A stretch of DNA of 64,000 nt. Source: Micromonospora sp. WMMA1363 (GTDB lineage Bacteria; Actinomycetota; Actinomycetes; Mycobacteriales; Micromonosporaceae). The notes beneath the pieces are model-generated. The model searched no databases. It was not told the origin of the DNA and saw nothing but the letters and a program-made list of their open reading frames with translations. Positions 6,113 to 62,712 of the stretch are shown piece after piece (within the stretch, counting starts at the first letter, position 1; every line of letters begins with the position of its first letter). The stretch is taken from assembly GCF_030345795.1 (NCBI RefSeq), contig NZ_JAUALB010000001.1, positions 4,766,001 to 4,830,000 on the forward strand, in the 5' to 3' direction. Made by a program: the position numbers and the translations under genes.

Positions 6113-6113
6113 G

Positions 6114-20891: not shown

Positions 20892-20978
20892 GGCAGCGCC
20901 ATGTGGGTATCACAGGTGCGGCGAGCATGGCACCACTGGGGTTGACCCGGTTTGACGGACAGGGTCGGTAAGTTGATC

Positions 20979-21875: not shown

Positions 21876-22183
21876 CGGGTCTCCCTCACGAAGAAAGCCG
21901 TGGCCCGTTTCAGGATGTCGACGTCCTCGCGGAGCCGGCGGTTCTCCCGCCGCAGCCGCGCCAGCTCGTCGCGCTCGTCGCTGGTCAACCCGTCGCTGCG
22001 GGTGCCGGCGTCGATGTCGGCCTGCCTGACCCACTCACGGACCGCGGTCTCGGTCAGGTCGAAGTCCCTCACGACCTGCGCCACCGATCGGTCACCCCGC
22101 CGGCACACCTCGACGATCTCCGCCTTGAACTCCGGCGTGAACGCTCTGCGCGGCCGGCGTGGCTTCTTGCCCATGCCTTCCAT
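21872..22183 (-). CDS. IS3-family transposase OrfA
   Basis: A 103-residue OrfA from ATG 22183 (an in-frame start at 22237 lies in the terminal repeat and is unlikely). It has the HTH pattern RAFTPEFKAEIVEVCRRGDRSVAQVVRDF, a second helix pair LTETAVREWVRQADID, and a leucine-zipper-like end LARLRRENRRLREDVDILKRA. The GGGAGG at 22195-22200 is its ribosome-binding site. Confidence 0.9.
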   Translation of the reverse strand: MEGMGKKPRRPRRAFTPEFKAEIVEVCRRGDRSVAQVVRDFDLTETAVREWVRQADIDAGTRSDGLTSDERDELARLRRENRRLREDVDILKRATAFFVRETR

Positions 22184-22401
22184 GATGAACATCCTCCCGA
22201 GGAGCACACAGCCCCTCTGAGCTGGGATGTCCGTCAAACCGGGTCAGGCCCACCACCCGGCGGGCAGCGGATGGGTGGGGCGCCGTGGCATGCATCGACC
22301 GCGGGCCCCATGCCCACCGACACACGGCGGGAATGGGGCCTGCGCCGCCCACCACCGACCACCCGTTCGTGGGTATCGGGCCACCCCGCTGCCTCGCCGC
22401 G

Positions 22402-23868
22402 TCACACGCCGTGATCCAGGCGGACCGTGCCGGCGTTGAGGCAGGAAAGCAAGGTGCGGGCCTGGACGTTGAGGTAGTGGCCGTGCTGGGCGAGATTGTT
22501 GAGCTGGCCCGGGGTGGCCCAGCGGAACCCGGTGGGCGGATCGAGCGGTGCCTGCGCCTCGTCGGCCTCGACGAACAGATAGTTGCTCTCGGCGTTGAGG
22601 AACCGGCCGCCCTCCTCGGAGTGCACCGCGGCGTAGCGAATGCGGTCGGGGTCGGCGGCGTGCACGACGTCGAGGAAGCACGGGCGCTGTGGCTCGGGCA
22701 GGTGCGTCCAGTTTTCTGGCGTGCACTGCACCGTCGGCGCCAGTTCGACGGTATCCAGGAACCCGGCCTCCACCTTTGCCTGCACCAGCAGGTGCGGTAC
22801 GCCCGCGAGGCGGCGGACGAGGAATGCGGCCACGCCGGTGCTCGTCGGCTCGAACAGCGGCTGCGACCAGCCGGTGACCTCGCGGTTGCCGGCCTCGACC
22901 CCGACGGCGACCAGGCGGAAGTACCGGCCGTCCGCCCGGCCGATAGAGTGCTCGCCGCGCTCCCACTCGTCGATGCCGGCCAGCGGCACACGCTCGACGG
23001 CCACGTCGTGGCGGGACCGCTCGACGGTGAACCAGGACAGCAGCTCCGCGTCGGTATGCAGGGCACCCGGCTCGGCCGGCGCCACCGGACAGCAGGCGAG
23101 GACCGTCCGGGCGTCCATGTTGACCACGTTGTCGCGACGCAGCAGCTCGCCGATCTGCCCGAGCGTGAGCCAGCAGAAGTCGTCGTCCACCGGCACGTGG
23201 TCCACCGCCTCGACCACGATGTTGCGGTTGGACTTGCGGTAAAACCAGGAACCGTGCTCCGACTGGAGTACGTCGGTGAGAACGAGGCCGCGGCTTCGGT
23301 CCGTGAAGTACTCCAGGTACTTCACGGGCGTCCCACGGTGGGCGCCGGTGTAGTTGCTGCGGGTGGCCTGCACCGTGGGTGACAGCTGCAACAGGTTGGG
23401 GTTGCCGGGCTCCATCTTGGCTTGCATGAGGAAGTGCAGCACGCCGTCGAACTCCTTGGCGAGGATGCCCAAGATGCCCACCTCGGGCTGCCGGATGATC
23501 GGCTGCTGCCACCGGCGGATCGCCCCTTCGTCGAGGCTCACGTCGAGTCCTTCGACGGAGAAGAATCGGCCGGTGCGGTGGTGCAGGTTGCCGGTGTCCG
23601 CTGCGAAGAACCAGCTGTCCAGAGCATCGAGCGGAATTCGCTCGACTCGGAAGTGGTGGGCCCGGGCCCGCTCGGCGAGCCATCCGGCGACATCGGCCGT
23701 GCGCAGCGCGGCACCCTCGGAGCGCACGGACGTCGAGCGGGCCAGCCGTTGCGCCAGGGTGTCGTCGGCGCGCGGGCGCAGCGCGGCCGTCGGGTGCTTC
23801 GGCGGCTCGGTCTCCGCCGTGCCTGGGCGCCCGGCCGAGGCCGGGCGGTCGGAACGGTACCGGGTCAC
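22402..23868 (-). CDS. staJ: NDP-hexose 2,3-dehydratase (StaJ-type)
   Basis: A 488-residue protein made of two tandem homologous halves (about residues 70-280 and 290-485), the hallmark of NDP-4-keto-6-deoxyhexose 2,3-dehydratases. Compare HFLMQAKMEPGNPNLLQLSPT in the first half with LVQAKVEAGFLDTVELAPTVQ in the second, each followed by a conserved N-W/Y segment. It removes the C2 hydroxyl to make a 2-deoxy-3-keto sugar for the amino-deoxyhexose of staurosporine-type compounds. GTG 23868 overlaps the staK stop (GTGA), indicating coupled translation. It is the last gene of the minus-strand operon; an IS3 element follows. Confidence 0.92.
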   Translation of the reverse strand: MTRYRSDRPASAGRPGTAETEPPKHPTAALRPRADDTLAQRLARSTSVRSEGAALRTADVAGWLAERARAHHFRVERIPLDALDSWFFAADTGNLHHRTGRFFSVEGLDVSLDEGAIRRWQQPIIRQPEVGILGILAKEFDGVLHFLMQAKMEPGNPNLLQLSPTVQATRSNYTGAHRGTPVKYLEYFTDRSRGLVLTDVLQSEHGSWFYRKSNRNIVVEAVDHVPVDDDFCWLTLGQIGELLRRDNVVNMDARTVLACCPVAPAEPGALHTDAELLSWFTVERSRHDVAVERVPLAGIDEWERGEHSIGRADGRYFRLVAVGVEAGNREVTGWSQPLFEPTSTGVAAFLVRRLAGVPHLLVQAKVEAGFLDTVELAPTVQCTPENWTHLPEPQRPCFLDVVHAADPDRIRYAAVHSEEGGRFLNAESNYLFVEADEAQAPLDPPTGFRWATPGQLNNLAQHGHYLNVQARTLLSCLNAGTVRLDHGV

Positions 23869-24863
23869 GACAACCCCTCCTCCGCTCCGCTGGCGCAGAA
23901 GTTGACCGTGCGACGTAGCGCTTCCGTCAACGGCACCTGTGGGCGCCAGCCGCTGACCGTTTGGAACGCCGTCGCGTCGATCGTCACGCTGTGGAAGTCG
24001 CCCGGCTCCGCGTGCGGGGGTGGCGGCACCGAGACAACCCGCACCGGCGGCTTGCCGGTGCGGTCGGCGACCAGGTCCGCCACCGTGGTAAACACCTCGC
24101 CCAGGGGTAGCCCGCGCCCGGATCCGAGCAGCCACGCCCGCCCGGCCAGGGCGTCAACGTGGTCGACCGCCGCGACCAGCGCCCGCGCCACATCCTCGAT
24201 GTAGAGCAGGTCACGGCGCACCGTGCCGTCGTGCCACATGGTGATCGGTTCCCCAGCCAGGGCACGTCGCACCATCGTGGACACTACGCCCTTGTCCCGA
24301 GCGGTGGAGCGCGGACCATACCCGAACACCGTGGGCAGCCGGATCGACACGGCTCGCAAGAGCCCCTCGGCGTGGGCGTCGAGCAGCACCCGTTCGGCCG
24401 CGAGCTTCTGCCGGTCGTACTCGCCCTTCGGACGGTCGGGCTCGCTGCCGTCGAGGACCTCCTTGTCAGTGGGCCCGACCTGCGAGGCGGCGCCCGCGAA
24501 GACCACGGGCAGGGGCGGGCCGGTCCGGTCGTCGTCCCGCAGCACTGCGACGAGGTCACGGACCAAACCGACGTTGACGCGCTCGGCGGCCGAGTCGCCC
24601 TCGTTGATGCGCCAGGTCGTCGATCCGGCGATGTACGCGATGGTGTGGATGACGGCGTCTGCGCCGGCGACGGCCTCGGCCAGGCGGCCGGGCTCGGTGA
24701 GGTCGGCGGTGTGTACCTCGACCTCGGCACGGGCATCCGCGGGGACCGGGGCCGCGCGGCGCGAGACGGCCCGCACCCGGACGTCACGCGCGGCCAGTCC
24801 GCGCAGTACGGCGGAGCCGACGAAGCCGGTCGCGCCGAGTAGCACGATGAGGGGACGATTCAC
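23865..24863 (-). CDS. staK: NDP-hexose 4-ketoreductase (StaK-type)
   Basis: A 332-residue extended short-chain dehydrogenase with the nucleotide-binding motif VLLGATGFVGSAVLRGL at the N-terminus, the acidic strand end VHTADLTEPG, and the catalytic YDRQK (Y-x3-K). It reduces the 4-keto group of the deoxysugar intermediate. GTG 24863 overlaps the staE stop; GTG 24869, two codons upstream, is an alternative. Its stop overlaps the staJ start, so staE-staK-staJ form a tightly coupled unit. Confidence 0.9.
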   Translation of the reverse strand: MNRPLIVLLGATGFVGSAVLRGLAARDVRVRAVSRRAAPVPADARAEVEVHTADLTEPGRLAEAVAGADAVIHTIAYIAGSTTWRINEGDSAAERVNVGLVRDLVAVLRDDDRTGPPLPVVFAGAASQVGPTDKEVLDGSEPDRPKGEYDRQKLAAERVLLDAHAEGLLRAVSIRLPTVFGYGPRSTARDKGVVSTMVRRALAGEPITMWHDGTVRRDLLYIEDVARALVAAVDHVDALAGRAWLLGSGRGLPLGEVFTTVADLVADRTGKPPVRVVSVPPPPHAEPGDFHSVTIDATAFQTVSGWRPQVPLTEALRRTVNFCASGAEEGLS

Positions 24864-25489
24864 TGCCACAGCTTCGCCTCCACGTCTCGGCACACCGCGT
24901 AGTCGGTCAGCAGGCCGCGATCGCGTGCGTCGGCGAGTGTGGGGGCGGCCCGGTCCCGGTCGGACTGAATCGGAGCGATCCCGGCCGGCAGGGGCAGCCC
25001 CAGCGCCGGGTCCAGCGGCGAGACCGCCCGCTCGTTCTCCGCCACGTAGCCTTCGGACATCGCGTACACGATCATGGAGTCGTCCTTCAGTGACAGGAAG
25101 GCGTGACCAACTCCCACGGGGATGTAGAGCGCCCGGCAGGTGTCGCCGTCGAGTTCGGTGCTCTCCCACCGGCCGAAGGTGGGTGAGCCGACCCGCAGGT
25201 CGACCAGAAAGTCCTGGACCCGCCCGTAAGGGCAGTAGACGTACTTCGCCCGCCCCGGCGGCGTGGCGGTGTAGTGAATGCCGCGCAGTACTCCACGGGC
25301 CGACAGGTTGTGGCTGATGTCACGCACCGGGAACAGCGGCCAGCCGACCGTCCCGGCGAATGCCGGCTCCTGGTACGGCGAAGCGAAGAGGCCGCGCTCG
25401 TCCCGGTAGACGGGGGGCGTGAACTCGACGGCCCCCTCGATGGCAAGCCGGCGCACCTGCACGCCGCCGATGGCTTTACCTTCCTTCAT
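24860..25489 (-). CDS. staE: dTDP-4-keto-6-deoxyhexose 3,5-epimerase (StaE-type)
   Basis: A 209-residue cupin-fold epimerase of RmlC type. LRGIHYTATPPGRAKYVYC carries the catalytic His and the phosphate-binding Lys region, DLRVGSPTFGRWESTEL follows, and IPVGVGHAFLSLKDDSMIVY carries the second conserved His. ATG 25489 has a good ribosome-binding site (GGAAGGGACC) and matches the family length; longer in-frame starts reach into intergenic DNA. It sets the L-configuration of the amino sugar. A 222-bp gap separates it from the aminotransferase gene upstream. Confidence 0.93.
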   Translation of the reverse strand: MKEGKAIGGVQVRRLAIEGAVEFTPPVYRDERGLFASPYQEPAFAGTVGWPLFPVRDISHNLSARGVLRGIHYTATPPGRAKYVYCPYGRVQDFLVDLRVGSPTFGRWESTELDGDTCRALYIPVGVGHAFLSLKDDSMIVYAMSEGYVAENERAVSPLDPALGLPLPAGIAPIQSDRDRAAPTLADARDRGLLTDYAVCRDVEAKLWQ

Positions 25490-25711
25490 CGGAGGTCCCT
25501 TCCGGAAACGCTTTCGCTGCTTGTCCTGCGAGGATTGAGATGGGACGGTGCGCTGGAGCGGCGACCACCAGGGCTCGACGCCGGCCAGGAGGTCGTGCCG
25601 CGAGGACTGGTCCGTCGGCACTGTCGTAGCCGCCGCCGGGGTCGTGGATGCCGACGGTGGCGGCCCTGCGTGGGACCGCCCTCGTCCTGGATTCCGGGGT
25701 TCGACGTGAGC

Positions 25712-26833
25712 TCACAGTGCGGCCAGAACCTTGCGCAGGGCCGCGGCCACCCGCTCCTGCTCCGACTCGGACAGGGAGGGGTACATGGGCAACGAGAAGA
25801 TCTCCTTGGCCAGCCGCTCGGTCACCGGCAGAGACCCCTCGGCGTAGCCGAGGTGCGCGAAGCCGCTCATGGTGTGTACCGGCCACGGGTAGCTGATGTT
25901 CAGCGAGATGTCGTAGGCCTGCAGCGCCTGAAGGATCGCGTCGCGTTGCGGGTGCCGGACCACGTAGACGTAGTAGACGTGGGTGTTGCCCGGGTTGGTG
26001 GTGGGTAGCAGCAGACCACCAGGACCGGTGAGGTCGCCGAGCAGTTGCTGCCAGCGCCGGGCGACGGCGTTGCGCCCGGCGATGTACTCGTCCAACCGGC
26101 CCAGCTTGCGTCGCAGGATTTCGGCCTGCACCTCGTCGAGGCGTGAGTTGTGCCCCGGTGTTCGTACGACGTAGTAGACCTTGTCCATGCCGTAGTACCG
26201 CAGCTGCCTGAGGTTGCGGTCGGTCCGCTCGTCGGCGGTGATCACGGCCCCGCCGTCGCCGTACGCTCCGAGGACCTTGGTGGGGTAGAAGGAGAAGGCG
26301 GCCGCGTCGCCCGTGGTACCCGCGAGACGCCCGTGCTGACGGGCACCGTGGGACTGGGCACAGTCCTCCAGGATCTTCAGGCCGTGCTCCTCGGCGAGCC
26401 GTACGAGCGGCGCCATGTCGACGCACTGGCCGTAGAGGTGCACGGGTAGGATCGCGCGGGTGCGCGGCGTGATGGCGGCTGCGACCTGGTCGGTGTCCAT
26501 GAGGAAGTCGTCCTCGCGGATGTCGACGAAGACCGGCGTCGCTCCGGCACCCACGGTGGCGACCACGGTGGGTGCCGCGGTGTTGGAGACCGTGATGACC
26601 TCGTCGCCGGGGCCGATGCCGAGCGCTTCCAGACCCAGCTTCACGGCGTTGGTGCCGTTGTCGACGCCAGTGGCGTACGGCAGCGAGTGGTACGCGGCGA
26701 ACTCCCGCTCGAAGCCCTTGACGCTCTCACCGAGCACCAGTTGGCCCGAGCCGAACACCGTTTGGACCGCGTCGAGGATGTCGTCCTTTTCCTTGGCGTA
26801 TTCCGGTAGGTAGTCCCACACACGGGTCGTCAC
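25712..26833 (-). CDS. staI: PLP-dependent NDP-hexose aminotransferase (StaI-type)
   Basis: A 373-residue DegT/DnrJ/EryC1-family sugar aminotransferase. The PLP lysine lies in [20 protein letters not shown] (about residue 185), the cofactor-binding Asp in [13 protein letters not shown], and the N-terminal [20 protein letters not shown] is typical. It transfers an amino group to C3 of the keto sugar, giving the nitrogen that StaMA-type enzymes methylate. The 241-bp spacing from staA suggests possible separate transcription. Confidence 0.93.
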
Positions 26834-27074
26834 TTGGTTGGCTCCTGGTTGTCGAAACGGATGGGGTGCACAGGCCGGCTCAGGTGTCTGCGGTGGTGGG
26901 CGACGCCGAACCGTTGGCCACGACGAACGCGTCGTGGGCCGGTCGTCGGCAGGGCGTGCGTCAGCGGGCCAGCTGCCGGGTAGCTGTCCTCGGGCGAGAT
27001 CAAGGCATGCCTTTTTCCATTTCTGCGGAGGGATTGGCGGATCGGGGTTCGGTACCCGCTCGGGTGTTCCGGTG

Positions 27075-27944
27075 TCAGCCGGCGGCGGTCACTTCCATCA
27101 CGTACTGCCCGTATGGGGATTGAGCGAGCCGGCGGCCGAGGCGGTGGCAGGCTTCCTGGTCGATGAACCCCATGCGCCAGGCGATCTCCTCGAGGCAGGC
27201 GATCCGGACGCCTTGGCGGTGCTCCAGGATCTGCACGTACTGGCTCGCCTCGGTCAGCGCGTCATGGGTGCCCGTGTCCAGCCACACGAAGCCGCGTCCC
27301 AGGGAGATCAGCTCGGCCCTGCCCCGCTCGAGGTAGACGCGGTTGACATCGGTGATCTCCAGCTCTCCCCGTGCGGAGGGACGTAGGTCCCGGACGATGT
27401 CGAGGACCGTGTTGTCGTAGAGGTAGAGCCCGGTGATGGCCAGGTTGGAGCGCGGCCGGGCAGGCTTCTCCTCCAGGCCGACGAGCCGTCCGCGCGCGTC
27501 CACCTCGCCCACTCCGTAGCGCTCGGGGTCGCGCACCGGGTAGCCGAACAGCACGCAGCCGTCGATGTCGGCTGCGCTCCCCTGCAGCATGCCGCTGAAG
27601 CCTGGGCCGTGGAAGATGTTGTCGCCCAGCACGAGCGCGACGGAGTCGTCGCCGATGTGGTCGGCGCCGATGCGGAAGGCGTCGGCCAGCCCGCGGGGCT
27701 TGTCCTGTTCGGCGTAGCTGAGCGACAGCCCGAGCTCGGAGCCGTCGCGCAGCAGCCGCCGGAACAGCGGCAAATCGTCCGGCGAGGAGATGATCTGTAT
27801 GTCGGTGATGCCCGCCAGCATGAGTACCGACAGGGGGTAGTAGATCATCGGCTTGTCGTAGACCGGGAGGAGTTGCTTCGACACGCCGAGAGTGATCGGA
27901 TGCAGCCGGGTTCCATGCCCGCCCGCCAGGATTAGTCCCTTCAC
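27075..27944 (-). CDS. staA: Glucose-1-phosphate thymidylyltransferase (StaA/RmlA-type)
   Basis: A 289-residue nucleotidyltransferase, the usual RmlA length, from GTG 27944 next to GGCAGTGGC. It shows the signature [36 protein letters not shown], then [12 protein letters not shown] with the metal-binding Asp, and [22 protein letters not shown]. It makes dTDP-glucose from glucose-1-phosphate and dTTP, the first step of deoxysugar synthesis. The following enzyme, a 4,6-dehydratase (StaB), is not in the window. Confidence 0.93.
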
Positions 27945-28071
27945 GCCACTGCCTCCATGTGTGCACTCTTTCCGCGTCGGAGCAGATTTCCGGATACTGG
28001 ACGGCGGCTGCCTACGGACGAACTTTCCCTTTCGGTGTTCCCGCCCGTCCCGCGGTCCTGAGACTTCCTGG

Positions 28072-29724
28072 TCAGACCATTGACGAATTGGCTGAGCCGG
28101 TCGGCGCCTCGGCGCGGTTGCCTCGTATCGTGTCGACGAATTCGGCTGGGTCCGCAGGCAGGTCGTCGCCCCGCCATGCCACATGGCCGTCTGGACGGAC
28201 CAGTACGAAGGGCCGTTCGTAGAGCTTTGCGATCTCCTCGTCGCGTCCGTTCCGCACGGTCAGGGGTACGGCTCGCTCGGTGAACGCGCGCTCGAGCGCC
28301 GCGAGTTCGCCGTGCTCGGCGAAGGACAGCAGGACGAACCCGCGCCCGAACAGGTCGAGTGTGGAGGTGGTGGCGTCCCACCACGCGTGCGCGGCGCGGC
28401 AGCCCGGGTCGCCGCCGGGACGCCAGTCGGCGTCCGGCAGGCCACGACGGATCGGCGCCTGGGGGTCGGCGATGACGATCGGGGAGCGGTAACACAGCCC
28501 GAAGTGAATGTCCGGCGCGTCGAACTCCCGGTGTGCTCCGCTGTCTTTCAGTCGCTGTGCCATCTCCGCGCGAGCCTGTTCACCCTCGGGGCCGTTCAAG
28601 TGTATTTCGGGTGGGACCTGCCGGCGCATGGTGCGTTGCAGGTTGAGATTGGCCTCCTGCAGGCTTTCCACCGCGATCGGTCTGCGCTCGGTTTCGTACG
28701 TGTCCAACAGGTGGCACCCGGCCCAGCCGTTCAGTGCGGCGGCGAGTTTCCAGCCCAGATCGGCGGCGTCGCCCAGTCCGGTGTTGAGCCCGAAGCCGCC
28801 GGAGGGGGAGAGCGTGTGCGCGGCGTCGCCGGCGAGGAAGATCCTTCCCGCTCGGTAGCGGTCGGCGACCCGGTGGGTGAGATGCCACTCGCCGTCGCTC
28901 AGCAGTTCCACCGGCGTGTCGAGGGCGATGGCGTCCTTGATCAGCGACTGTGCGTCGAGCCGGGTGACGGCGGGGTCTGCGTTGACGACCAGGTTGTACA
29001 GGTCACCTCCGTTCAACGAGCGCATGGGAAAGCGCAACGTGGACGACAGCATGAGGAAGTAGACGAGGGCGGCGCGGTCGCCGAGTTGCCGCTTGAGGTC
29101 GGGAGCGCGGAAGAGGATGTTCCGGAAGACCTGGGTCTTGTGGCGCGGCGGAGCGTCGATGCCGCAGGCCTGACGGATGGGAGAGGCGGCGCCGTCGCAG
29201 GCAACCAGGAACCGCGCCCGGACGGTGCCTGTCGTGCCGGTGTCACGGTCGGTGAGAACGGCCTCGACATGGTCGTCTGTTTGCTGTACGCGGTCGACGG
29301 TCGTCTTGAGTCGCAGCGGACCGTTCGGGTGGACGCCCACGGCACGCGTCAGCAGCGGGTTCAGCCAGTGCGCCGGGCATATCTGATCGGGCTCGGGGGT
29401 GTGGGTGAAGGCCGTGCGGGTCGCCGCCGTTCCCCGGCGGTACCGGTGGACCTCGTGGCCGCCGACCCTGGTGACCCAGGCGATGTCCAGGGGGTGGTCG
29501 GCAGGCCATCCTGCGCTGCGGATGGCATCTGCGACACCCCACCGGCGAAACAGTTCCATCGAGCGTGGGCCGATCGTGCTCACCTTGGGGTGCCGGACGT
29601 TTCCGTCGCCCGCATCGACGACCACGCAGTCGATCCCGCGGTACGTCAGGTCCAGCGCCAGCGCCATCCCGACCGGGCCGCCGCCCACGATGAGCACGTC
29701 GGTCCACTCGCCGGAGTTCGTCAT
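28072..29724 (-). CDS. staC: FAD monooxygenase of indolocarbazole aglycone formation (StaC/RebC)
   Basis: A 550-residue class A flavoprotein with the GxGxxG dinucleotide motif VLIVGGGPVGMALALDLTYRG near the N-terminus, a central DG motif (FLVACDGAASPIRQACG), and the second FAD motif GRIFLAGDAAHTLSPSGGFGLNTGLGDAADLGWK. With the P450 StaP it converts chromopyrrolic acid to the aglycone; StaC-type enzymes give K252c and RebC-type enzymes the imide arcyriaflavin. Assignment as StaC rests on the staurosporine-type sugar and P450 genes around it. ATG 29724 has AAGGACGG upstream; a longer frame start at 29781 is less likely. Confidence 0.88.
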   Translation of the reverse strand: MTNSGEWTDVLIVGGGPVGMALALDLTYRGIDCVVVDAGDGNVRHPKVSTIGPRSMELFRRWGVADAIRSAGWPADHPLDIAWVTRVGGHEVHRYRRGTAATRTAFTHTPEPDQICPAHWLNPLLTRAVGVHPNGPLRLKTTVDRVQQTDDHVEAVLTDRDTGTTGTVRARFLVACDGAASPIRQACGIDAPPRHKTQVFRNILFRAPDLKRQLGDRAALVYFLMLSSTLRFPMRSLNGGDLYNLVVNADPAVTRLDAQSLIKDAIALDTPVELLSDGEWHLTHRVADRYRAGRIFLAGDAAHTLSPSGGFGLNTGLGDAADLGWKLAAALNGWAGCHLLDTYETERRPIAVESLQEANLNLQRTMRRQVPPEIHLNGPEGEQARAEMAQRLKDSGAHREFDAPDIHFGLCYRSPIVIADPQAPIRRGLPDADWRPGGDPGCRAAHAWWDATTSTLDLFGRGFVLLSFAEHGELAALERAFTERAVPLTVRNGRDEEIAKLYERPFVLVRPDGHVAWRGDDLPADPAEFVDTIRGNRAEAPTGSANSSMV

Positions 29725-29811
29725 GTCGTCCCGTCCTTCTTCGATGCCTGGGATCGGATGGCCCGGGGCGCCGGGGAGCACGCTCAGTGGCCTCCCCGGC
29801 GCCTGGGTGGC

Positions 29812-30654
29812 CTACGGACGTTCCGCGGTGGCCAGAAGGCAGCCGAAGTCGTCGACGCCTTCCAGGTCGGAGGGCTTGAAGGCCTCGTCGGAGAACTCGA
29901 AGTTGCCTTCGTTCAGGGCCGCGGGGCGCTCATCGGCGACCGGCACCTTCGCCAGTTCGTACGACAGGCGCAACGTGGTCTGCTCGGTGACGTCGAGGAT
30001 CTCGCGCAGCCGCAGACCGGAACGGTGCAGCATCGGAACGTAGTCGTCGATGTCCGCCATGGTCGACATCAGGTCGCGGCAGAACTTGTCGACACCCTGG
30101 GGTCGGACGTCCTTACGCGGGAATCGATCGAACACGTCGGTCAGGACGAGCCGGCCGCCGGGCACAAGTACTCGGCACACCTCGCTGAGCACCTGCTGCC
30201 GGTCCGGCATGTGGCACATCGACTCCAGCGCCATGACGGCGTCGAACGACTTGTCCGGGAACGGAAGCCGCATCGCGTCGCCGTGCTGGAACACGGCGCG
30301 GTCGGCGACCCCGGCCTCGGCCGACAGCCGGTTGGCGGTCTTGATCTGCTCCTCGCTGATGCTGATGCCGGTGACCCGCGCACCGGTCTTGGCCACGACC
30401 CGCAGACCGGGACCACCGACCCCGCAGCCCAGGTCAAGGACATGGGAGGACGCGTTCACTTTCAACCGCTCGATGAACACATCGGTCAGCCGGTCCATTG
30501 CCTCGTCGATCGAGGCATCGGATTCCGGAGTGTCCCAGTATCCGATGTGCACGTTGGGATTGAAGGTGCCGTCGTTCATCGCGCTCAGGGTGAGCCGGTC
30601 GTACAGCTCGCCGACCGCGTTCGGCACAGGTAGGGTTTGCGCGACGTTGGTCAT
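29812..30654 (-). CDS. SAM-dependent sugar methyltransferase (RebM-like; StaMA position)
   Basis: A 280-residue class I methyltransferase with motif I VLDLGCGVGGPGLRVV, then VTGISISEEQIKTANRLSAEAG, DAMRLPFPDKSFDAVMALESMCHMPD and a lid region with GGIDEY-like IDDYVPML. It strongly resembles RebM and related glycoside methyltransferases. Its position directly after staP matches StaMA, the enzyme assigned to N-methylation of the staurosporine sugar, as I recall the Streptomyces cluster. O-methylation cannot be excluded. It is the only methyltransferase in the cluster. ATG 30654 has GAAAGG upstream. Confidence 0.85.
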   Translation of the reverse strand: MTNVAQTLPVPNAVGELYDRLTLSAMNDGTFNPNVHIGYWDTPESDASIDEAMDRLTDVFIERLKVNASSHVLDLGCGVGGPGLRVVAKTGARVTGISISEEQIKTANRLSAEAGVADRAVFQHGDAMRLPFPDKSFDAVMALESMCHMPDRQQVLSEVCRVLVPGGRLVLTDVFDRFPRKDVRPQGVDKFCRDLMSTMADIDDYVPMLHRSGLRLREILDVTEQTTLRLSYELAKVPVADERPAALNEGNFEFSDEAFKPSDLEGVDDFGCLLATAERP

Positions 30655-30972
30655 GGTTGCCGCCTTTCTGGTGGACCGAAGTGACTGGGCAGTGGAGCGT
30701 GATGCCCTCGGTGGGTCAGACGTCCCACTCCGGCACCGGGGCCGGTGCGGAGACGCTTGGGGTGAAAACGGGTGCGCCATCGATGGCGTGTCTGCGTGCT
30801 TTCAATCTGCTCCTGCGGTTGGATGGACGGCTCGGCGAATGTCGCAGCGTCGACCGCACTTCGCGTGGTGCGTCGATGCCGTTGTCGTGCCGGCCGGGGT
30901 GAACGAGGGCCATGTCATCGACGAAGACGATGACGTGTGGTGGGATGCGGCAGGCTGTGCCGGACGGCCGCG

Positions 30973-32268: not shown

Positions 32269-32326
32269 GCGGTCTCCTTCTGCAGTCAGCACGGTGTTTG
32301 CGTCGGGCACGCCGGCCCAGGCACTG

Positions 32327-35300: not shown

Positions 35301-35536
35301 TTGGCCGCGCTGAAGGGTCCGTCGGGGCTGGGGCGGCCCGTGTGGTCGAAGCGCGGTCCCAGCCGGTCGAGGTAGTCGTGGTACGCATGGGCCGGGTGCT
35401 CCACGGGGAAGGGCCTGCCGTCGTCGGTGAGCGCCGTGTTCGTCGCCAGGTCCACCAGACCGTTGCGCGGGCCGGTGGGCAGGTGCGTCGTCGCCGTTCC
35501 GCGGAAGTGCAGCCGAGGCAGGTCGAAGACGCTCAT
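32327..35536 (-). CDS. staD: Chromopyrrolic acid synthase StaD/RebD
   Basis: A 1069-residue protein starting [20 protein letters not shown], almost the same opening as RebD and StaD. RebD is a heme enzyme that couples two indole-3-pyruvate imine units into chromopyrrolic acid. The C-terminal half contains the ferritin-like segment ([33 protein letters not shown]) shared with VioB. ATG 35536 overlaps the staO stop (ATGA), fitting the tight cooperation of the two enzymes, since StaO's product is unstable. Length is within the family range (about 1010-1120). Confidence 0.95.
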
Positions 35537-37041
35537 GCCGACTTCTCCGTGCGGCTCGGCCGGGTGGCGGCGAACTCGGGTCCAGGCTCGTCCCACTCGA
35601 TTTCGTGCGCGGCGTCGATGGCCGATTCGATCGCACCCTCGATCCACGCGGGCTTCGACGAACAGTGCTCGCCCGCGAAGAACAGCCGCTTCTGCGGTCG
35701 GGCCGCCTCCAGTCGCTCGGCCTCGCGGAGGGCCGCTTTCTGTCCCCATCGGACGGTGGCCGCACCGAGGGACCATTGGTGCAGGCCCCAGGCCCGCGCC
35801 GCCACGCCCATGATCATGCCCGGCCTGCGCAGCTCGGGGTGCATCTCGCTCAGTTCCCGGATGATGAGCGCGTTCCGCTCCACCTCGCTCAGCCTGCTGA
35901 GCTCGTCGGCGTCCGGCCCGATGCTGTAGCTGGCGAGCAGAACGGCGCCGAGTGCCGGATCGCCGTCGGCCGGCGGGTAGTAGGTCTGCCGCACGTGTCC
36001 GCCGGTGAAGGATGCGCCGCCGCTGATCCCGTCTTTCTGCCAGAAGGCTTCGCGGCAGTGCAGGGCGATCTTGGTGGCCGCCCAGTACTTCGTCTGATGG
36101 ACGATGTCCAGCTTGTCCTGGTCGAATCCGGCCAGCCGCATCGTCCTGAGTACCGTGAACGGAATGGTGCAGACCACGTAGTCGCAGCTCGTGGCGACGA
36201 TCCCCGCACCATGACGGACGTGCAGGACCACCTCGTCGTCCCGGACGTCGATGCTCACCACCTCCCGGCCGGTCGAGATCGGCCCCCTGATCTTCGCGGC
36301 TAGTCGCCGGGGCAGCAGGTCCATCCCGTCCCGCAGTCGCACGAGTTTGGAACCCGTCTCGTCCAGTACGTCGTCGAGAAACCGCTCGAGGTGCGGCGGG
36401 CAGAGCGACCGGAATAGGGGATGGTCGGCGTAGAAGGAGTGCAGGTCGATTCGGTTTCCCGCGGTCCCGGACCGGTACGGCGTCAGATCGATGTCGTCGA
36501 TGAGGTCAAGTAGTTCCACGCCGATTTCGTTGTGCATTCCGTCGTAGAACTGGCGGGGGGCGATAGCCCTGATGGTGGCATCCAGCCAGGCACCGAAAAG
36601 CAGGGTGTTCTCTCGGTACCGCCGGTTCGGCAACCCGGCCACGAACTCCTTGACCAGCGTTTCGTGCGCGTCCCGCACCCGGAGGTATCCAGCAGAACTA
36701 GGCAGATACGCGGCGTCATCGGAGAAAAGCGTTTGAAACCGGCAAACCTGGTCTTGTAGACCTAGTTCGGCGATGTAGTGCCTGGTCAGCCGATGCCCCG
36801 TGGGGATCCGCATTGCTCCGAGCTCGGCGAAAGGTCCGGGCTGACCGTCGACAGGAAACCGGTGTGTGTCGATGCGTCCACCGACATCGCGGCTTGCTTC
36901 GATGACCTCGACGTGATGCCCGAGGCGCTCCAGCTCATATGCGGTTACCAGCCCGGCGATGCCCGCACCGATGACGGTGACGCGCTTCCGCTCACTGATG
37001 TCGGGGCCTGGCCCGCCACTGTCTTGCAAGGGTGTCACCAC
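35533..37041 (-). CDS. staO: L-tryptophan oxidase StaO/RebO
   Basis: A 502-residue flavin amine oxidase with the FAD motif VTVIGAGIAGLVTAYELERLGHHVEVIEA near residue 20, the following RIDTHRF with GAMRIP, and the C-terminal FFAGEHCSSKPAWIEGAIESA that closes the FAD site. It oxidises L-tryptophan to indole-3-pyruvate imine. The starts GTG 37041 and GTG 37038 lie at proper distance from GAGAGGA; an ATG-like start at 37065 overlaps that site. No halogenase gene is present, so unsubstituted tryptophan is the likely substrate. It is the first gene of the minus-strand operon. Confidence 0.93.
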   Translation of the reverse strand: MVTPLQDSGGPGPDISERKRVTVIGAGIAGLVTAYELERLGHHVEVIEASRDVGGRIDTHRFPVDGQPGPFAELGAMRIPTGHRLTRHYIAELGLQDQVCRFQTLFSDDAAYLPSSAGYLRVRDAHETLVKEFVAGLPNRRYRENTLLFGAWLDATIRAIAPRQFYDGMHNEIGVELLDLIDDIDLTPYRSGTAGNRIDLHSFYADHPLFRSLCPPHLERFLDDVLDETGSKLVRLRDGMDLLPRRLAAKIRGPISTGREVVSIDVRDDEVVLHVRHGAGIVATSCDYVVCTIPFTVLRTMRLAGFDQDKLDIVHQTKYWAATKIALHCREAFWQKDGISGGASFTGGHVRQTYYPPADGDPALGAVLLASYSIGPDADELSRLSEVERNALIIRELSEMHPELRRPGMIMGVAARAWGLHQWSLGAATVRWGQKAALREAERLEAARPQKRLFFAGEHCSSKPAWIEGAIESAIDAAHEIEWDEPGPEFAATRPSRTEKSA

Positions 37042-37318
37042 AGATTTCCTCTCGACGCGACGCAAAGCACGGGAATGTGCTCGAAAGGCGATGACGGAAT
37101 CGGCTCGTTGACCATTGTTGGGCCCGAGGACGCGCGTTCACATCACGTGGTCGGCGGGTGCACGGGTGGGTTGCCCTGCGGTCCGTCGAGTCGATCGCGG
37201 CGGCTCGGCCGGGCCATCCTGCGTGGCCGCGCAGGTTTCGTCCCGAGGCGGTGTCCAAGGCCCGGAGTTCGGTGACACTGGCGGGCGATGAACCTGAAGC
37301 CCGACGGAGGCGATGTTG
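37042..37318. promoter_or_regulatory. Divergent promoter region between staO and staG
   Basis: This is 277 bp of non-coding DNA from which the two main transcripts of the cluster diverge. It is the most likely binding region for the LuxR-type activator StaR. I could not pick out a convincing paired operator by eye; TTGACCATTG (37109-37118) is a candidate promoter element for the rightward direction. Confidence 0.6.
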
Positions 37319-38626
37319 ATGCGAGTGTTGATCGCTACCACACCGGCACCGGGACATGTGGTCAGCATGGTGGAGGTGGCGGGCGAGCTGGCTCAGCGCG
37401 GGCATGAGGTGCGGTGGTACACCGGCCGGGCATTCCAGCCGCAGGTGGAGCAGGCCGGGGCGCGCTTCGAGCCCATGAGTGCCGCGCTCGACTTCGGCGG
37501 CAGGAGCCGGGAGGAGGCCTTCCCGAGCCACGCCGGACTGACCGGACTGGCCAGTTTCAAGATCGGTATCCGGGACATCTTCTACCGGACCGCGCCGGGG
37601 CAGCTCACCGACCTGCTCGCGGTGCTCGAACGCTTTCCCGCCGACTGCATCCTCGCCGACGACATGTGCTACGGCGCCTGCTTCGCAAGCGAGCGCACCG
37701 GACTACCGTTGGCCTGGCTGAGCAACTCGATCTATATCCTTGGCAGTAGGGACACCGCGCCGCTCGGCTTGGGACTGCCGCCGAGCTCCTCCCCGCTCGG
37801 GCGGGTGCGCAACGCCCTACTTCGATTCGTCGGGGACCAGGTGTCCATGCGGGACCTGCGCAGGGAAGCCGACCACACACGAGCCGCGGTGGACCTGCCG
37901 CGGCTGAGGACGCGGGCCATGGAGAACATCGCTCGCCCACCGGACCTGTACCTGGTGAGCACCGTGCCCTCGTTCGAGTTTTCCCGCAGCGACCTGCTTC
38001 CGGGCACACACTTCATCGGCGGTCTCTTCGGACTCCCCCCGGAGAAGTTCGAGCCGCCCGGCTGGTGGGCGGAGCTGCAGGCAGGTAAGCCGGTGGTGTT
38101 GATCACCCAGGGCACCACCGCCAACGACGTCGACCGGCTGCTCGTTCCCGCAGTCCGGGCACTGGCCGACGAGGACCTCCTCGTTGTGGTCACCACGGGA
38201 AGCGACCTGGATGTCGACCTGCTGCGGCCACTGCCGGGCAACGTCCGGCTGGAGCGGTTCATTCCCTACCACCACCTGCTGCCGCACGTGGACGTGATGC
38301 TGACCAATGGGGGCTACAACGGCGTGAACGCCGCCCTCGCCCAAGGCGTGCCCCTGGTCGCCGCACCGGCCACCGAGGAGAACCCCGACGTCGCGGCGCG
38401 AATCAAGTGGTCCGGGGCGGGGGTCGTCCTCGCCCGACGTGCCGTCTCCGAGGCCAGCCTGCGTGCGGCCGTGACCACCGTACTGAACGACGGGCGCTAT
38501 CGGGAGCGGGCACGCGCGCTGTCCCGCGAACACCAGCGTTGCGACGCCCCACGACGGGCCGCCGAGCTCATCGAATCCATGGCCGAATCCCAGGGTCGAG
38601 TCCCCACCGGAGGTATCACACAGTGA
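37319..38626 (+). CDS. staG: Indolocarbazole N-glycosyltransferase StaG/RebG
   Basis: A 435-residue GT-B fold UGT-like enzyme. The N-terminal MRVLIATTPAPGHVVSMVEVAGELAQRGHEVRWYTG is the acceptor-side start and the C-terminal HVDVMLTNGGYNGVNAALAQGVPLVAAPATEENPDVA is the nucleotide-sugar loop. The NGGY form in place of HGG is seen in RebG/StaG-like enzymes. It makes the first N-glycosidic bond on the aglycone. ATG 37319 lies 8 bases after GGAGG and is preferred over ATG 37313, which is too close. Its stop overlaps the staN start. Confidence 0.93.
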   Translation: MRVLIATTPAPGHVVSMVEVAGELAQRGHEVRWYTGRAFQPQVEQAGARFEPMSAALDFGGRSREEAFPSHAGLTGLASFKIGIRDIFYRTAPGQLTDLLAVLERFPADCILADDMCYGACFASERTGLPLAWLSNSIYILGSRDTAPLGLGLPPSSSPLGRVRNALLRFVGDQVSMRDLRREADHTRAAVDLPRLRTRAMENIARPPDLYLVSTVPSFEFSRSDLLPGTHFIGGLFGLPPEKFEPPGWWAELQAGKPVVLITQGTTANDVDRLLVPAVRALADEDLLVVVTTGSDLDVDLLRPLPGNVRLERFIPYHHLLPHVDVMLTNGGYNGVNAALAQGVPLVAAPATEENPDVAARIKWSGAGVVLARRAVSEASLRAAVTTVLNDGRYRERARALSREHQRCDAPRRAAELIESMAESQGRVPTGGITQ

Positions 38627-39846
38627 GTGTCACCACGAACACCGACTTGGCCGAAGCCCCCGAGACGACGATGCCGGTCGACCCGGGGCCGTTCGACTGC
38701 ATGCCGGAGCTGCTTGCGGCGGCGCGGGTGGCGCCGGTCGTGCGGATTCCCTACCTCGACAAGCACGCGTGGGTCGTGTGCGACCGCGAGCTGGTGAAGA
38801 TCGCGCTCACCCACCCCAAGATGGGTAAGGACATCACCCTCGTTCCAGACTGGATGCGCAAGCCGGGCCTGATGGTGGGAGCGCAGCCGCCCCCGGAGTA
38901 CGCGCGTGCCATGATCATGAGTGACGGTGAGAACCACGCGCGGATCCGACGGGTCCACGCGCCGGTGCTGAGCCCGCGGAACACCGAGCGATGGGGCGAG
39001 CGGGTCGCCGTCAAGGTCGAGGGATTCCTCGACGAACTCGAGCAGGCCTCCAGGGGCAGCGCCGAGGTCAACGTGGTCACGGACTACACGCACAAGATCC
39101 CGCTGGCGTTCATCTCCGAGATGCTCGGTCTGCCTCCGGAGGCGGAGCAGCGGCTGCGGGGCATCACCGACATCATGCTGTACTCATCTGACTACGCGGC
39201 CCGCCGGGAGGCGATCGGAGGGCTGTTCGGGGCGGTCGAGGATTGGGTGCGCAACCCGGCCGTGCTGCGCGACGGTGTGATCACGGGGCTGCTGGCCTCC
39301 TCCGACGGGCCGGACGCGGCGGTCACCGAGGGCGAGGTCATCGTCTGGACCCTAGGGATGATCATCACTGGCTACGAGACGACCGGGAGCCTGATCTCCG
39401 CTTCGCTCTACGAGGCCCTGCGGCGTCCCGCGCAGGAGCGACCGCGAACCGACGAGGACCTCCGGGCGTGGATCGAGGAAACCCTGCGGGTGCACCCGCC
39501 GTTTCCGCACCCGACCTGGCGCTTCCCCCTCGAGGACATCGATCTCGGTGGGTACCTGATTCCCAAGGGGGCGCCTGTGCAGGTCAGCATCGCGGCGGCG
39601 AACCGTAACCCGGACGAGGGAGCCGACAGCTTCGACGCGGAACGACAGGGACACGGACACCTTTCCTTCGGCCTCGGAGCGCACTACTGCATCGGCGCCT
39701 CGCTGGTTCGGCTCGAGGCGCAGATCGCGGTGCGCGGTTTCCTGCAGCGGTTCCCACAGGCGCGGTTGAGCACCGGCACCGCCGTCCAGTGGGAGTCGGA
39801 ATGGATGATTCGCCGAATGAGCGTGCTGCCCGCCGTGTTGACCTGA
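38623..39846 (+). CDS. staN: Cytochrome P450 StaN (second C-N bond)
   Basis: A 407-residue P450 from GTG 38623, which overlaps the staG stop (GTGA) with GGAGG 9 bases before. I-helix region GMIITGYETTGSLISASLY has Thr-Gly in place of the usual Ala-Gly; E-x-x-R is in IEETLRVHPPF and the heme loop is LSFGLGAHYCIGASLVRLE. In staurosporine biosynthesis StaN joins the sugar to the second indole nitrogen. This gene, absent in rebeccamycin-type clusters, is the main sign that the product is bridged through two C-N bonds. Confidence 0.92.
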   Translation: MSVTTNTDLAEAPETTMPVDPGPFDCMPELLAAARVAPVVRIPYLDKHAWVVCDRELVKIALTHPKMGKDITLVPDWMRKPGLMVGAQPPPEYARAMIMSDGENHARIRRVHAPVLSPRNTERWGERVAVKVEGFLDELEQASRGSAEVNVVTDYTHKIPLAFISEMLGLPPEAEQRLRGITDIMLYSSDYAARREAIGGLFGAVEDWVRNPAVLRDGVITGLLASSDGPDAAVTEGEVIVWTLGMIITGYETTGSLISASLYEALRRPAQERPRTDEDLRAWIEETLRVHPPFPHPTWRFPLEDIDLGGYLIPKGAPVQVSIAAANRNPDEGADSFDAERQGHGHLSFGLGAHYCIGASLVRLEAQIAVRGFLQRFPQARLSTGTAVQWESEWMIRRMSVLPAVLT

Positions 39847-39851
39847 GTCGG

Positions 39852-39904
39852 GAGTGCGCGCGACCCGGGAGCCTGACCGGCCGGGCTCTGGGCCACGCGC
39901 ACTC
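39852..39904. terminator. Bidirectional terminator between staN and staR
   Basis: GAGTGCGCG (39852-39860) pairs with CGCGCACTC (39896-39904), with further imperfect pairing inside. It lies in the 80-bp gap between the convergent ends of staN and staR and would stop transcription from both sides. Confidence 0.6.
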
Positions 39905-39926
39905 ATCGACCAAGTCTTTGCCGGAG

Positions 39927-42900
39927 CTATGCCGTCGAGGCTTCGGGGCGGGACGTGCGCAGGGCCTCGCACCGGATCAGCGCCGAACGGGATCGGATCC
40001 CGAGCTTGCGGTAGATCTGCCGCAGGTGGAACCCGACCGTATGTGGCGAGATGAACAGGTGGGTCGCGGTCTGCTGGTTGGTGAGCCCGCCGGCAACCAG
40101 TTTCGCCACCTTTCGTTCGGTCTCGGTGAGGCTGTCCCAGCCCGATACCGGCCGCTTGACGTGCTTCCAGTGTCGGCGCCACACTCCGAGCCCGCGCAGC
40201 CGAGCGCGCACGCGGGCAGCGTCCCGATCTCCCCCGAGCGCGCCGTAGGCGTTCATCGCACGGTCCAACTCGGCGATCGCGGTCTCGTGATCGCCTCGGT
40301 CGAGCAGGATACCGGCGTGGTCCTCGGCGGCTGTGGCCTGAGCCCACGGGTTTCGGTGCAGTCTGCCCGCCTCGGCCAGGGCGTCCGCGTCTGCTTCGGC
40401 GAGCGCGCGGGCATGCACGGCCGCGCCGAGCACCGCGGGAACGCGTGGGTTGCGCGCGCTGAGGGACTCGGTCGTGTCAACCACCGCTCGGGCGATATCC
40501 GGCCGGTCAGCCGCGAGCGCGCAGCGGACCCACCAGGCCGCGGCCGCCGGGTCCTCCAGGACGATCTCGCACGGGGTAACGGCCTGCGTCCCGATCTCAG
40601 CCAACACCTCGACCGCCGCCGTGGGGCCCGCCTGGGCCTCGGCCAGCTGCGCCTGCAGGAGGAGGCGGGCCGCCCGCCAGGGATTGGAGGCGTCCTGCGG
40701 GCACTTCCTCGCCAAGGCGTTCAAGTGATCTTCGGCGTGGTTCGGCGCTCCACGGCGCAATGCGACGTGGGCCAGCACCAGCCACGCCTGTGGAGCGAGA
40801 ATCGGCACGTACCGGCCGTCTTGCCCCGTGCCGGCCCGCGCCGCCTCCTCGGCCTCGTCCAGCCGCCCGCGAACAAGGCTCAGGGGGGCCCTGAGCGCAG
40901 CCCCGACCGCGGCGGCCGGGGTCCTCGCAGTCGAGGCTGTTGTCTGGGCATACCCGTGAACCACCGCCTCCGCCTCCTCGTATTCGTCAATTCTGGTCAG
41001 GGCGAAGGCCAGGAACCAGCGCGGATCGAGGACCTGAACGCCGTCACCAACCTGGTTGAGCGCGACGGCGTCACGCAGCGCCGCCACCGCGTCGCCCACC
41101 TGGCCGTCTCGCCACCGGTCCAACGCATGGACAGTCATGGCGGCTACTCGCACAGCCCCGTCATGAAGGTCCGGTCCGTTGAGGATCGCCCGCACTCGTC
41201 CGACTGCCATGCTGTCCCCGGTCAGGTAGGACGCGGCGAGGTGGGTGACGAGGGCCTCGCCGGGCTGGAATCCGCCTTCCTGCCTCGCCAGCGCGTCCTC
41301 TGTGGCTCGGCGGGCCGCCAGCGCGTCGCCCCGCAGCAGCAACGCGGTCGACATCGACGCCTGCAGGGCGGCGATGTCCCCGGCGGGTGCCACCGACGCA
41401 GCGCCTGCCAGACTCGCGGCCTCATCGATCGCGTCCCTGGCCACGGTGACCGCCTCGTCCAGGTTACCCACCGTGGTGAGTGCTTTCACCGCGGTGTTCG
41501 CAAGGCGCGTGCGCTCGACCCGTCCGGGGCCCAGCAGTTCCATGCCGCGGGTCGCCAGCGACGCCGCGGTTGCGGGATCGGTGGCTACCAGCCGTCGGGC
41601 TCCCTCGGCGATGACATCGAGTTCCTTGGCATCATGGGGCTGGGCTACGTGCGCCAGTTGGAGGGCGGCGCGTTCGACGCCGTCAGGATGCGACAGCAGG
41701 GTCTCCGCCGCCTGCCGGCGCAGCAGCGCGCGTACCGGTGGGGGCACGGAGTCGAGTAGTACCCGCCAGATCGGCTCGGTGCGGAACGCGAGCCGATGCT
41801 CCTCACGACAGACCAGAACCCCGCGTTCCACCGCCTCGTGCACCGCCGTCAGCAGGCCAGCAGGCGACTCGTCGAGCATGGCCGACAGGTCCTCCGGTGC
41901 AAACGGCGATCCGAGCACGGCGGCCAGCCGGAGAGACTTGACGGTGGGGGCGGAGAGTTGCAGAAGACTCTCCTCGATCATCAGGGAAAGGCGTTTTGGC
42001 ACCGGCGCGGGCACACCCACGGCGGTCCCGGTGGGGGCGCTGCCGGGTGATCCGGGAGTCAACCGCGAGGTGCCGTCGACAGTGCATATGTCGCCATCCT
42101 CCATCAGCCCGCGTACCAGCTCGATGACCGCGCAGGGCGAATCGTTGACGCTTTCCACCAGGGCGAGGACCGCTGGGTCGGGGACGGCTCCGGTGTGGTC
42201 GGCTACCAGGTGCGCCAACGCTTCGCCCGTGAGCGGACTCAGCCGCAGGATCGGCTCTACGGCGACCCTGCCCCGAAGCCTGCTCAGGCAGGTCGTCATC
42301 GGCTCCGAAGGCGCGGCGCCCGCTGGCGAGGTGAAGGCCAGCAGCCAGACAACCGGTCGACCCTCGTGGGCCAGGATGAGGTCGCACAACGCCATCAGCG
42401 TGGAAGGATCGGCCAGGTGCAGGTCGTCGAGCGTGACGATGGTGGGGATGTGTTGCGCGGCGTGGCGTAACCGCGCCCGCGCTGTCTCGACCGTGGACGT
42501 CACCCTCGGGCTGTGAACTCCGTTGGCGACGATGCCCGGCGTGGGCAGCTGAGCGCCGGTAGCCACCTGCGCCGCCCCCGGCACGGCGTTTTCACCGGCC
42601 GCGACGCCATTGACGACGGCGAAGCTCATGTCGTCGGCGATGTTGGCGGCCTCGATCAGGAGGCGGGTCTTGCCGCTGCCGGATGCTGCCGTCACCATGA
42701 GGACCCTGCTCTGTCGGACGGCGGCTACCCTCTGCAGGTTCGTGCTGATCTGCTCCAACTGCTCTTCCCGGCCGCGTACCTTCCGCAACCGGAGTGCGTG
42801 GAGCCGTACCGGATTCTCCGTGTCCCGGTTGTGGGTGACGGGCGAAACCGTCTCCCGCCGACCCGGAAGCTGGCGCAGGCGGTGCAGATCGGTTTCCCCG

Positions 42901-42980
42901 GAGCCCACTGACACACGGTGATGGCCAGGGGCGCGGGCAGCCACAGTTGTGGCGTGTAACCCGAGTGCAGCCTTGTTCAT
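39927..42980 (-). CDS. staR: LuxR-family LAL regulator (StaR-type)
   Basis: A 1017-residue 'large ATP-binding LuxR' regulator. A Walker A motif is at about 98-106 (AASGSGKTRL), a Walker B-like strand is IPTIVTLDDLHLADP, a long helical TPR-like middle follows, and the C-terminal LuxR helix-turn-helix covers about 955-1005 (SLTETERKVAKLVAGGLTNQQTATHLFISPHTVGFHLRQIYRKLGI). StaR is the LAL-type activator of the staurosporine cluster, and the same role is likely here. ATG 42980 has GGGAGGG upstream. It forms the right border of the cluster and converges with staN. Confidence 0.92.
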   Translation of the reverse strand: MNKAALGLHATTVAARAPGHHRVSVGSGETDLHRLRQLPGRRETVSPVTHNRDTENPVRLHALRLRKVRGREEQLEQISTNLQRVAAVRQSRVLMVTAASGSGKTRLLIEAANIADDMSFAVVNGVAAGENAVPGAAQVATGAQLPTPGIVANGVHSPRVTSTVETARARLRHAAQHIPTIVTLDDLHLADPSTLMALCDLILAHEGRPVVWLLAFTSPAGAAPSEPMTTCLSRLRGRVAVEPILRLSPLTGEALAHLVADHTGAVPDPAVLALVESVNDSPCAVIELVRGLMEDGDICTVDGTSRLTPGSPGSAPTGTAVGVPAPVPKRLSLMIEESLLQLSAPTVKSLRLAAVLGSPFAPEDLSAMLDESPAGLLTAVHEAVERGVLVCREEHRLAFRTEPIWRVLLDSVPPPVRALLRRQAAETLLSHPDGVERAALQLAHVAQPHDAKELDVIAEGARRLVATDPATAASLATRGMELLGPGRVERTRLANTAVKALTTVGNLDEAVTVARDAIDEAASLAGAASVAPAGDIAALQASMSTALLLRGDALAARRATEDALARQEGGFQPGEALVTHLAASYLTGDSMAVGRVRAILNGPDLHDGAVRVAAMTVHALDRWRDGQVGDAVAALRDAVALNQVGDGVQVLDPRWFLAFALTRIDEYEEAEAVVHGYAQTTASTARTPAAAVGAALRAPLSLVRGRLDEAEEAARAGTGQDGRYVPILAPQAWLVLAHVALRRGAPNHAEDHLNALARKCPQDASNPWRAARLLLQAQLAEAQAGPTAAVEVLAEIGTQAVTPCEIVLEDPAAAAWWVRCALAADRPDIARAVVDTTESLSARNPRVPAVLGAAVHARALAEADADALAEAGRLHRNPWAQATAAEDHAGILLDRGDHETAIAELDRAMNAYGALGGDRDAARVRARLRGLGVWRRHWKHVKRPVSGWDSLTETERKVAKLVAGGLTNQQTATHLFISPHTVGFHLRQIYRKLGIRSRSALIRCEALRTSRPEASTA

Positions 42981-62647: not shown

Positions 62648-62712
62648 CCCGCGCTCCTCTCCCGGGGCTCTGACCAGAATCGCAAACGATCGAACCGGAT
62701 GCACGCGCTTCC

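Follow-up and report, generated by a model that had tools for sequence, protein, structure and literature searches.

A staurosporine-type gene cluster of the Salinispora layout in Micromonospora sp. WMMA1363, with a probable exchange of its sugar genes

Staurosporine is a parent of kinase-inhibitor drugs. In the sta/spc clusters of Streptomyces (TP-A0274, S. sanyensis), its genes stand in the order R B A N G O D P MA J K I E MB C, as given in Table 1 of PMC3640393. Here we analyze a stretch of 64,000 nucleotides from Micromonospora sp. WMMA1363 (the window), which carries 13 sta genes between positions 22402 and 42980, all of them open frames. Read in the direction of staO, these are R, N, G, O, D, P, MB, C, A, I, E, K and J, with N and G pointing the other way and an IS3-family insertion element following J. 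The Streptomyces clusters share the core O, D, P, C, G, N, MB and R with the window and additionally encode StaMA and StaB, both of which are absent from it; in S. purpureus, StaA belongs to the long class, and the Streptomyces sugar genes look like another lineage than those of the window. A first-pass annotation, made from the sequence alone, had recognized all 13 genes, the leftward run from staO to staJ with the IS3 element beyond it, and an order unlike that of Streptomyces, and in all of this it was correct; what escaped it is that the order is common to Salinispora, that staMA and staB are missing, and that the sugar genes seem to have a separate history.

The host genome (6.5 Mb, 20 contigs) belongs to a genus that includes Salinispora in the classification used, and StaD was found in 5 of the 151 genomes of that genus: the host itself, S. 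oceanensis (genome G067, locus L002), S. mooreana (G119, L004), S. cortesiana (G089, L025) and G079. The cluster was compared with loci of named genomes, with sequences from the PDB and with tables in the literature. All four other clusters have the gene order of the window (staR of S. cortesiana lies outside the stretch available) and a StaA like that of the window, and all lack StaMA. Most of their proteins are 78–92% identical to those of the window and StaR is 68–72% identical, for an overall range of 68–92%, while the neighboring genes are unlike those of the window. The staB gene is full in S. oceanensis and S. cortesiana, broken into two fragments in S. mooreana, and represented by approximately 44 base pairs (bp) in the window. 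The cluster is therefore of the known Salinispora-type staurosporine kind, further reduced by the loss of staB.

Within this layout, the sugar genes and the core genes appear to have different histories. We compared the mean identity of the window clade (five clusters) to five Streptomyces clusters and one Kribbella cluster with the mean identity of those six Streptomyces-type clusters to three Lentzea clusters. For the core proteins, the respective values are 58 versus 34% for R, 75 versus 70% for O, 72 versus 65% for D, 68 versus 61% for P, 77 versus 72% for MB, 75 versus 72% for C, 77 versus 73% for G, and 79 versus 80% for N; the clade is at least as near to the six clusters as these are to Lentzea, with N approximately equal. 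For the sugar proteins, the values are 73 versus 80% for I, 58 versus 73% for E, 55 versus 70% for K and 61 versus 71% for J, 7–15 points less. Of 46 loci found, 22 are represented in this identity work, in addition to the window and G079; those set aside were two sta clusters (L011 and L022, the latter with split frames), the cyanobacterial, Chromobacterium and Pedobacter loci and the remaining non-sta loci, as well as L012, L017, L036 and L044, which later served as outgroup rows.

In trees of C, P, G, O, D and MB, the sta copies together form a single clade (support 95–100) with the window clade inside, although its exact neighbors vary between the core-gene trees. In contrast, a single sta clade is rejected by tree tests for E (p 9e-7), K (p 6e-5), I (p 0.017) and J (p 0.041). 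K still rejects it (p 2.7e-5) when the outgroup is drawn only from loci or genomes without a StaD or StaO found (L118–L122 hold neither, and the other rows come from genomes without a StaD match), as does I with three outgroup rows (p 0.027). StaA also differs in class, being RmlA-short in the window (TIGR01207) and RmlA-long in S. purpureus (TIGR01208, 448 bits). Trees and gene order together point to a sugar cassette that was swapped in, with staMA removed alongside it. In the lineage of the host and Salinispora, a block A-(B)-I-E-K-J would have taken the place of two blocks of the Streptomyces type, B-A and J-K-I-E, and staMA, which stands next to J in Streptomyces, would have been lost because it adjoined one of the replaced blocks. 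We regard a staurosporine-type pathway that looks complete and has the Salinispora layout, with such a swap, as the probable reading of the locus. No report of a sugar-cassette swap in this pathway was found in the literature surveyed, mostly papers outside subscription and in partial text.

Among 120 listed of 555 StaK homologs, StaK of the window itself is followed by four at 85–90% identity (one named S. mooreana) and then by matches at no more than 77%, which among those listed come from Streptomyces, Actinokineospora, Actinoplanes and others, with P0246, P0250 and P0253 as examples at 73–77%; identity to S. purpureus StaK is 57%. A search of 200 genomes of the family for a StaK donor (best 10 candidates per genome, E up to 1e-110) yielded, besides the host genome, only G036, at 63%. 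In this genome, which has no StaD, J, I, E and K occur together (L119); I, E and K are 77, 62 and 62% identical to those of the window versus 72, 53 and 52% to those of S. purpureus, with J approximately equal (50 versus 49%). L119 and L118 (genome G045) are both aminosugar clusters without StaD or StaO, and their StaI-like proteins are 76–77% identical to StaI of the window. The E proteins of L118, L120 and L122 and the I protein of L120 resemble those of S. purpureus more than those of the window. This pattern fits two sugar-gene lineages, but these loci are not donors of the window type. The sta cluster of Streptomyces sp. TRM49041 (L018) has StaMA next to StaMB, and none of J, K, I and E was found in the stretch available; a StaK-like protein of the same strain (P0269), 71% identical to StaK of the window, is on another contig (62,416 versus 117,763 bases), and the sugar genes of this strain may be unlinked from its sta cluster.

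The loss of staB is a further feature of the window. A blastn comparison with S. oceanensis gives 87% identity over 103 columns (E 8e-30), covering the start of staI and approximately 44 bp of what is there the end of staB, and these 44 bp before staI are probably the scar of a deleted staB. The gene spans 356 residues in S. oceanensis and S. cortesiana, and 336 of 356 residues without stops in G079; in S. mooreana (L004, 18150–18760), all that persists between staA and staI is a pair of fragments, of 23 and 53 residues. The deletion in the window differs from that in S. mooreana, so the decay of staB apparently took place in two separate lineages. The StaB step could be supplied by a genomic rmlB (TIGR01181, 433 bits) that adjoins rmlA and rmlD.

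The single methyltransferase of the window, previously annotated as RebM-like, turned out to be a StaMB ortholog: in a quick tree it falls in the StaMB clade (Shimodaira–Hasegawa-like approximate likelihood-ratio test (SH-aLRT) 100) and is separate from the StaMA clade, whose members are encoded directly after staP in other clusters. The cluster encodes the O-methyltransferase StaMB and lacks the N-methyltransferase StaMA. No StaMA ortholog was found in the host genome, where the long matches besides StaMB are only 37–39% identical, or in the other four sta-positive genomes; in S. oceanensis, StaMB is the sole match to a StaMA query at E 1e-20. Nor does StaMB of this clade converge on StaMA: none of 14 clade-marking sites has moved towards StaMA and four have moved away (a stricter earlier definition left no qualifying sites). 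In a cluster without staMA, N-methylation must come from StaMB itself, come from an unlinked enzyme, or be absent.

Published statements bear on this question. The S. arenicola cluster is described as having no staMB homolog in a legend of PMC3158105, and a 2019 paper (PMC6426641) reports that no O-methyltransferase was found in the staurosporine cluster of S. pacifica CNY703. The four Salinispora-type clusters read here are the opposite: staMB is the only methyltransferase gene that they keep, and it is staMA that they lack. S. arenicola, of which the comparison included no named locus, would by extension likewise be staMB-only. For S. arenicola SH-78, an ion of m/z 467.2085 is annotated as staurosporine in the text available of PMC10817652, and if S. 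arenicola is alike, N-methylation must be the work either of a single enzyme of the StaMB type or of an unlinked one.

An unlinked methyltransferase acting on the sugar in trans is a possibility to which we give appreciable weight, somewhat short of even. The three StaMA-like paralogs elsewhere in the genome (C1:5763301, 1906180 and 707172), at the identities given above, would be candidates, and the enzyme may come from another family; on the other side, no paralog is common to all five sta-positive genomes, and S. oceanensis has nothing but StaMB at the threshold used. It is rather doubtful that the end product is only O-methylated (4'-N-demethylstaurosporine), staMA having been lost without replacement. 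The lack of a StaMA ortholog in the genome and the absence of convergence in StaMB are in keeping with this, while two published observations, each from partial text, oppose it: the ion of S. arenicola corresponds to two methyl groups, by inference from one methyltransferase (PMC3158105, PMC10817652), and a Micromonospora strain whose cluster is not known makes staurosporine and 4'-N-methyl-5'-hydroxystaurosporine (PMC9054317, PMC2707044). More tentatively still, one StaMB-type enzyme might perform both N- and O-methylation following the loss of staMA when the entire sugar cassette was exchanged. Alternatively, the foreign cassette might give a sugar epimer, and with it an isomer of staurosporine that would escape notice by mass spectrometry alone.

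Several points weigh against the exchange of the sugar cassette. With 43 rows, the K test does not reject a single sta clade (p 0.17), and neither does the E test without the long row L119 (p 0.10). The outgroup rows were picked by likeness to StaK of the window and several are long-branched; 25 of the 120 listed StaK homologs entered the 43-row K tree and 6 the E, K and I tests, and StaK relatives such as P0246 entered with their neighborhoods unread. The G tree test used two outgroup rows only, and the tree set excludes N. A donor cluster with a whole A-B-I-E-K-J block was not found among the loci compared, and the putative staB scar, being short, could instead reflect conservation upstream of staI. 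The first two results are compatible with an alternative in which the sugar genes are orthologous to those of Streptomyces and have merely evolved faster or been rearranged. We consider this improbable, as the deviation is common to four sugar genes, the class of StaA differs, the order has changed and the staMA that stood beside the old block is gone, in addition to the K, I and J tests.

As for the type of indolocarbazole, StaP has its best match among solved structures in 2z3t (649 bits versus 235 for the next match), which we take to be StaP. StaC matches 4eip, presumably RebC made StaC-like, better than wild-type RebC, which among natural enzymes of solved structure is the nearest to it. 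From these matches, with all ten distinguishing residues of StaC being of the 4eip type, the aglycone should be K252c. The core staO, staD, staP and staC of staurosporine-type clusters is present, as are staG and staN, the predicted activities of which would form two C-N bonds, and five of the six aminosugar genes (A, B, J, I, E, K), with at most the genomic rmlB standing in for staB. On the strength of these genes, the product is very likely an aminosugar indolocarbazole with two C-N bonds. No halogenase family was matched by Pfam in any of the 13 sta genes or in the part of the other window open reading frames (ORFs) that was scanned; an NCBIfam scan covered 12 of the 13 genes, leaving staK outside, with the best 25 families considered for some proteins.

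The staurosporine type is supported by the sequence tests made, in agreement with the first-pass annotation, which had set the cluster apart from the rebeccamycin and K252a types by StaN, the aminosugar genes and the lack of a halogenase. That annotation had also named, among the observations that would speak against it, a StaD and StaP closer to violacein or other bisindole pathways. This is not what the sequence shows: StaD scores 769 bits against the VioB model TIGR04492, below the cut-off of 1250, while it is up to 80–81% identical to StaD of sta clusters. A VioA equivalog is likewise rejected (NF053546, 30 bits, cut-off 600). The K252a type has a sugar without an amino group (dihydrostreptose genes), and the aminosugar genes here do not fit it. 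A rebeccamycin-, AT2433- or K252a-type cluster is very improbable despite the shared core O, D, P and C, which is that of reb also, since StaC has the 4eip-type and not the RebC-type residue at all ten distinguishing positions, StaN and aminosugar genes are present, and none of the 13 genes matches a halogenase in Pfam. Features of the cluster are collected in Table 1.

Table 1. Features of the sta cluster and the adjoining insertion element (positions in the window; bits are model scores; aa, amino acids; NDP, nucleoside diphosphate).
Feature	Position	Strand	Evidence
staR, LuxR/LAL-type regulator	39927..42980 (ORF coordinates)	-	GerE and AAA_16 Pfam domains; 68–72% to StaR of three Salinispora-type loci
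staN, P450 for second C-N bond, 391 aa, start inferred	38671..39846	+	heme motif FGLGAHYCIG; 83–86% Salinispora-type, 80% S. purpureus StaN
staG, N-glycosyltransferase	37313..38626	+	87–91% Salinispora-type, 82% S. purpureus StaG
staO, L-tryptophan oxidase, start inferred	35533..37041	-	Amino_oxidase Pfam domain; 84–85% Salinispora-type StaO
staD, chromopyrrolic acid synthase, 1069 aa	32327..35536	-	ferritin-like/VioB family; 78–81% Salinispora-type StaD
staP, aryl-aryl coupling P450	30973..32268	-	best PDB match 2z3t; heme motif present
staMB ortholog, O-methyltransferase, 280 aa	29812..30654	-	80–81% to P0006 and P0011, both NCBI-named StaMB; StaMB clade
staC, flavoprotein, K252c expected	28072..29724	-	4eip residue at 10/10 positions separating 4eip from RebC (2r0c)
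staA, glucose-1-phosphate thymidylyltransferase, RmlA-short class	27075..27944	-	TIGR01207 431 bits, cut-off 361
probable scar, 3' end of deleted staB	26834..26877	-	blastn match to S. oceanensis
staI, NDP-sugar 3-aminotransferase	25712..26833	-	DegT family; 90–92% Salinispora-type, 74% S. purpureus StaI
staE, NDP-sugar epimerase, start inferred	24860..25489	-	dTDP_sugar_isom Pfam; mean 84% to four Salinispora-type StaE; 59% S. purpureus StaE
staK, 4-ketoreductase, start inferred	23865..24893	-	Epimerase Pfam; 86–89% to four Salinispora-type StaK; 57% S. purpureus StaK
staJ, NDP-hexose 2,3-dehydratase, start inferred	22402..23871	-	Hexose_dehydrat Pfam, 531 bits
IS3-family element	20937-22252	-	NF033516 326 bits; 25-bp inverted repeats 92% complementary; 149 bp beyond staJ stop

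The ATG of staD overlaps the stop of staO. Loss of staK was considered and rejected, as the gene is intact, with an NAD-epimerase Pfam domain, behind a staJ ORF that extends upstream. The idea that the IS3 element truncates the cluster was rejected as well: the element lies past the staJ stop, and CCAC occurs on both of its sides (20933–20936 and 22253–22256), so it looks like a simple insertion.

Transposases occur on both sides of the cluster. The left 16 kb of the window is transposase-rich, with two DDE_5 genes in opposite orientation (6078–7553, plus strand, and 12008–13483, minus strand) whose products are identical at 490 of 491 residues, a further DDE_5 gene (7977–9158), a Mutator gene (14254–15534) and an rve integrase (1027–2046); a tRNA-Ala call of 94 bases (1023–1116) overlaps the integrase ORF and may be doubtful. 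To the right are a DDE_Tnp_1 transposase (49167–50111), preceded by an ORF (48343–49107) in the bin with the lowest guanine-cytosine content of the window in 2-kb steps (0.617) and with no Pfam match at E 1e-8, and adjacent, divergent genes for Ku and an ATP-dependent DNA ligase (61628–63672), as in bacterial end-joining repair. A search of 60 relatives did not show an empty site: the flanking genes for an AidB-like protein (46329) and a permease (18871) are both matched in 7 of them, on one contig in two (approximately 457 and 693 kb apart) and on different contigs in five.

What is observed are the identities of the genes, the residues of StaC, the absence of staMA and staB, and the likely staB scar; enzyme functions follow established knowledge of the families. 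In the pathway we propose, StaO and StaD would convert tryptophan to chromopyrrolic acid, from which StaP and StaC would form K252c. A 2,3,6-trideoxy-3-aminohexose bound to deoxythymidine diphosphate (dTDP) would be made by StaA, the housekeeping 4,6-dehydratase RmlB in place of the deleted StaB, StaJ, StaI, StaE and StaK. StaG would attach this sugar and StaN close the second C-N bond, with O-methylation by StaMB and regulation by StaR.

Clusters of this kind are numerous: according to the accessible part of PMC13200232, 196 in which StaD, StaO, StaG and StaN are colocalized were retrieved. The interest of the present one lies in the history of the sugar genes, likely a natural case of sugar-cassette exchange in the staurosporine pathway, and in its one methyltransferase. 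The latter bears on the claims, as worded in the parts available, of a missing staMB in S. arenicola (PMC3158105) and a missing O-methyltransferase in S. pacifica CNY703 (PMC6426641), and it poses the question of how StaMB-only clusters would yield a doubly methylated molecule.

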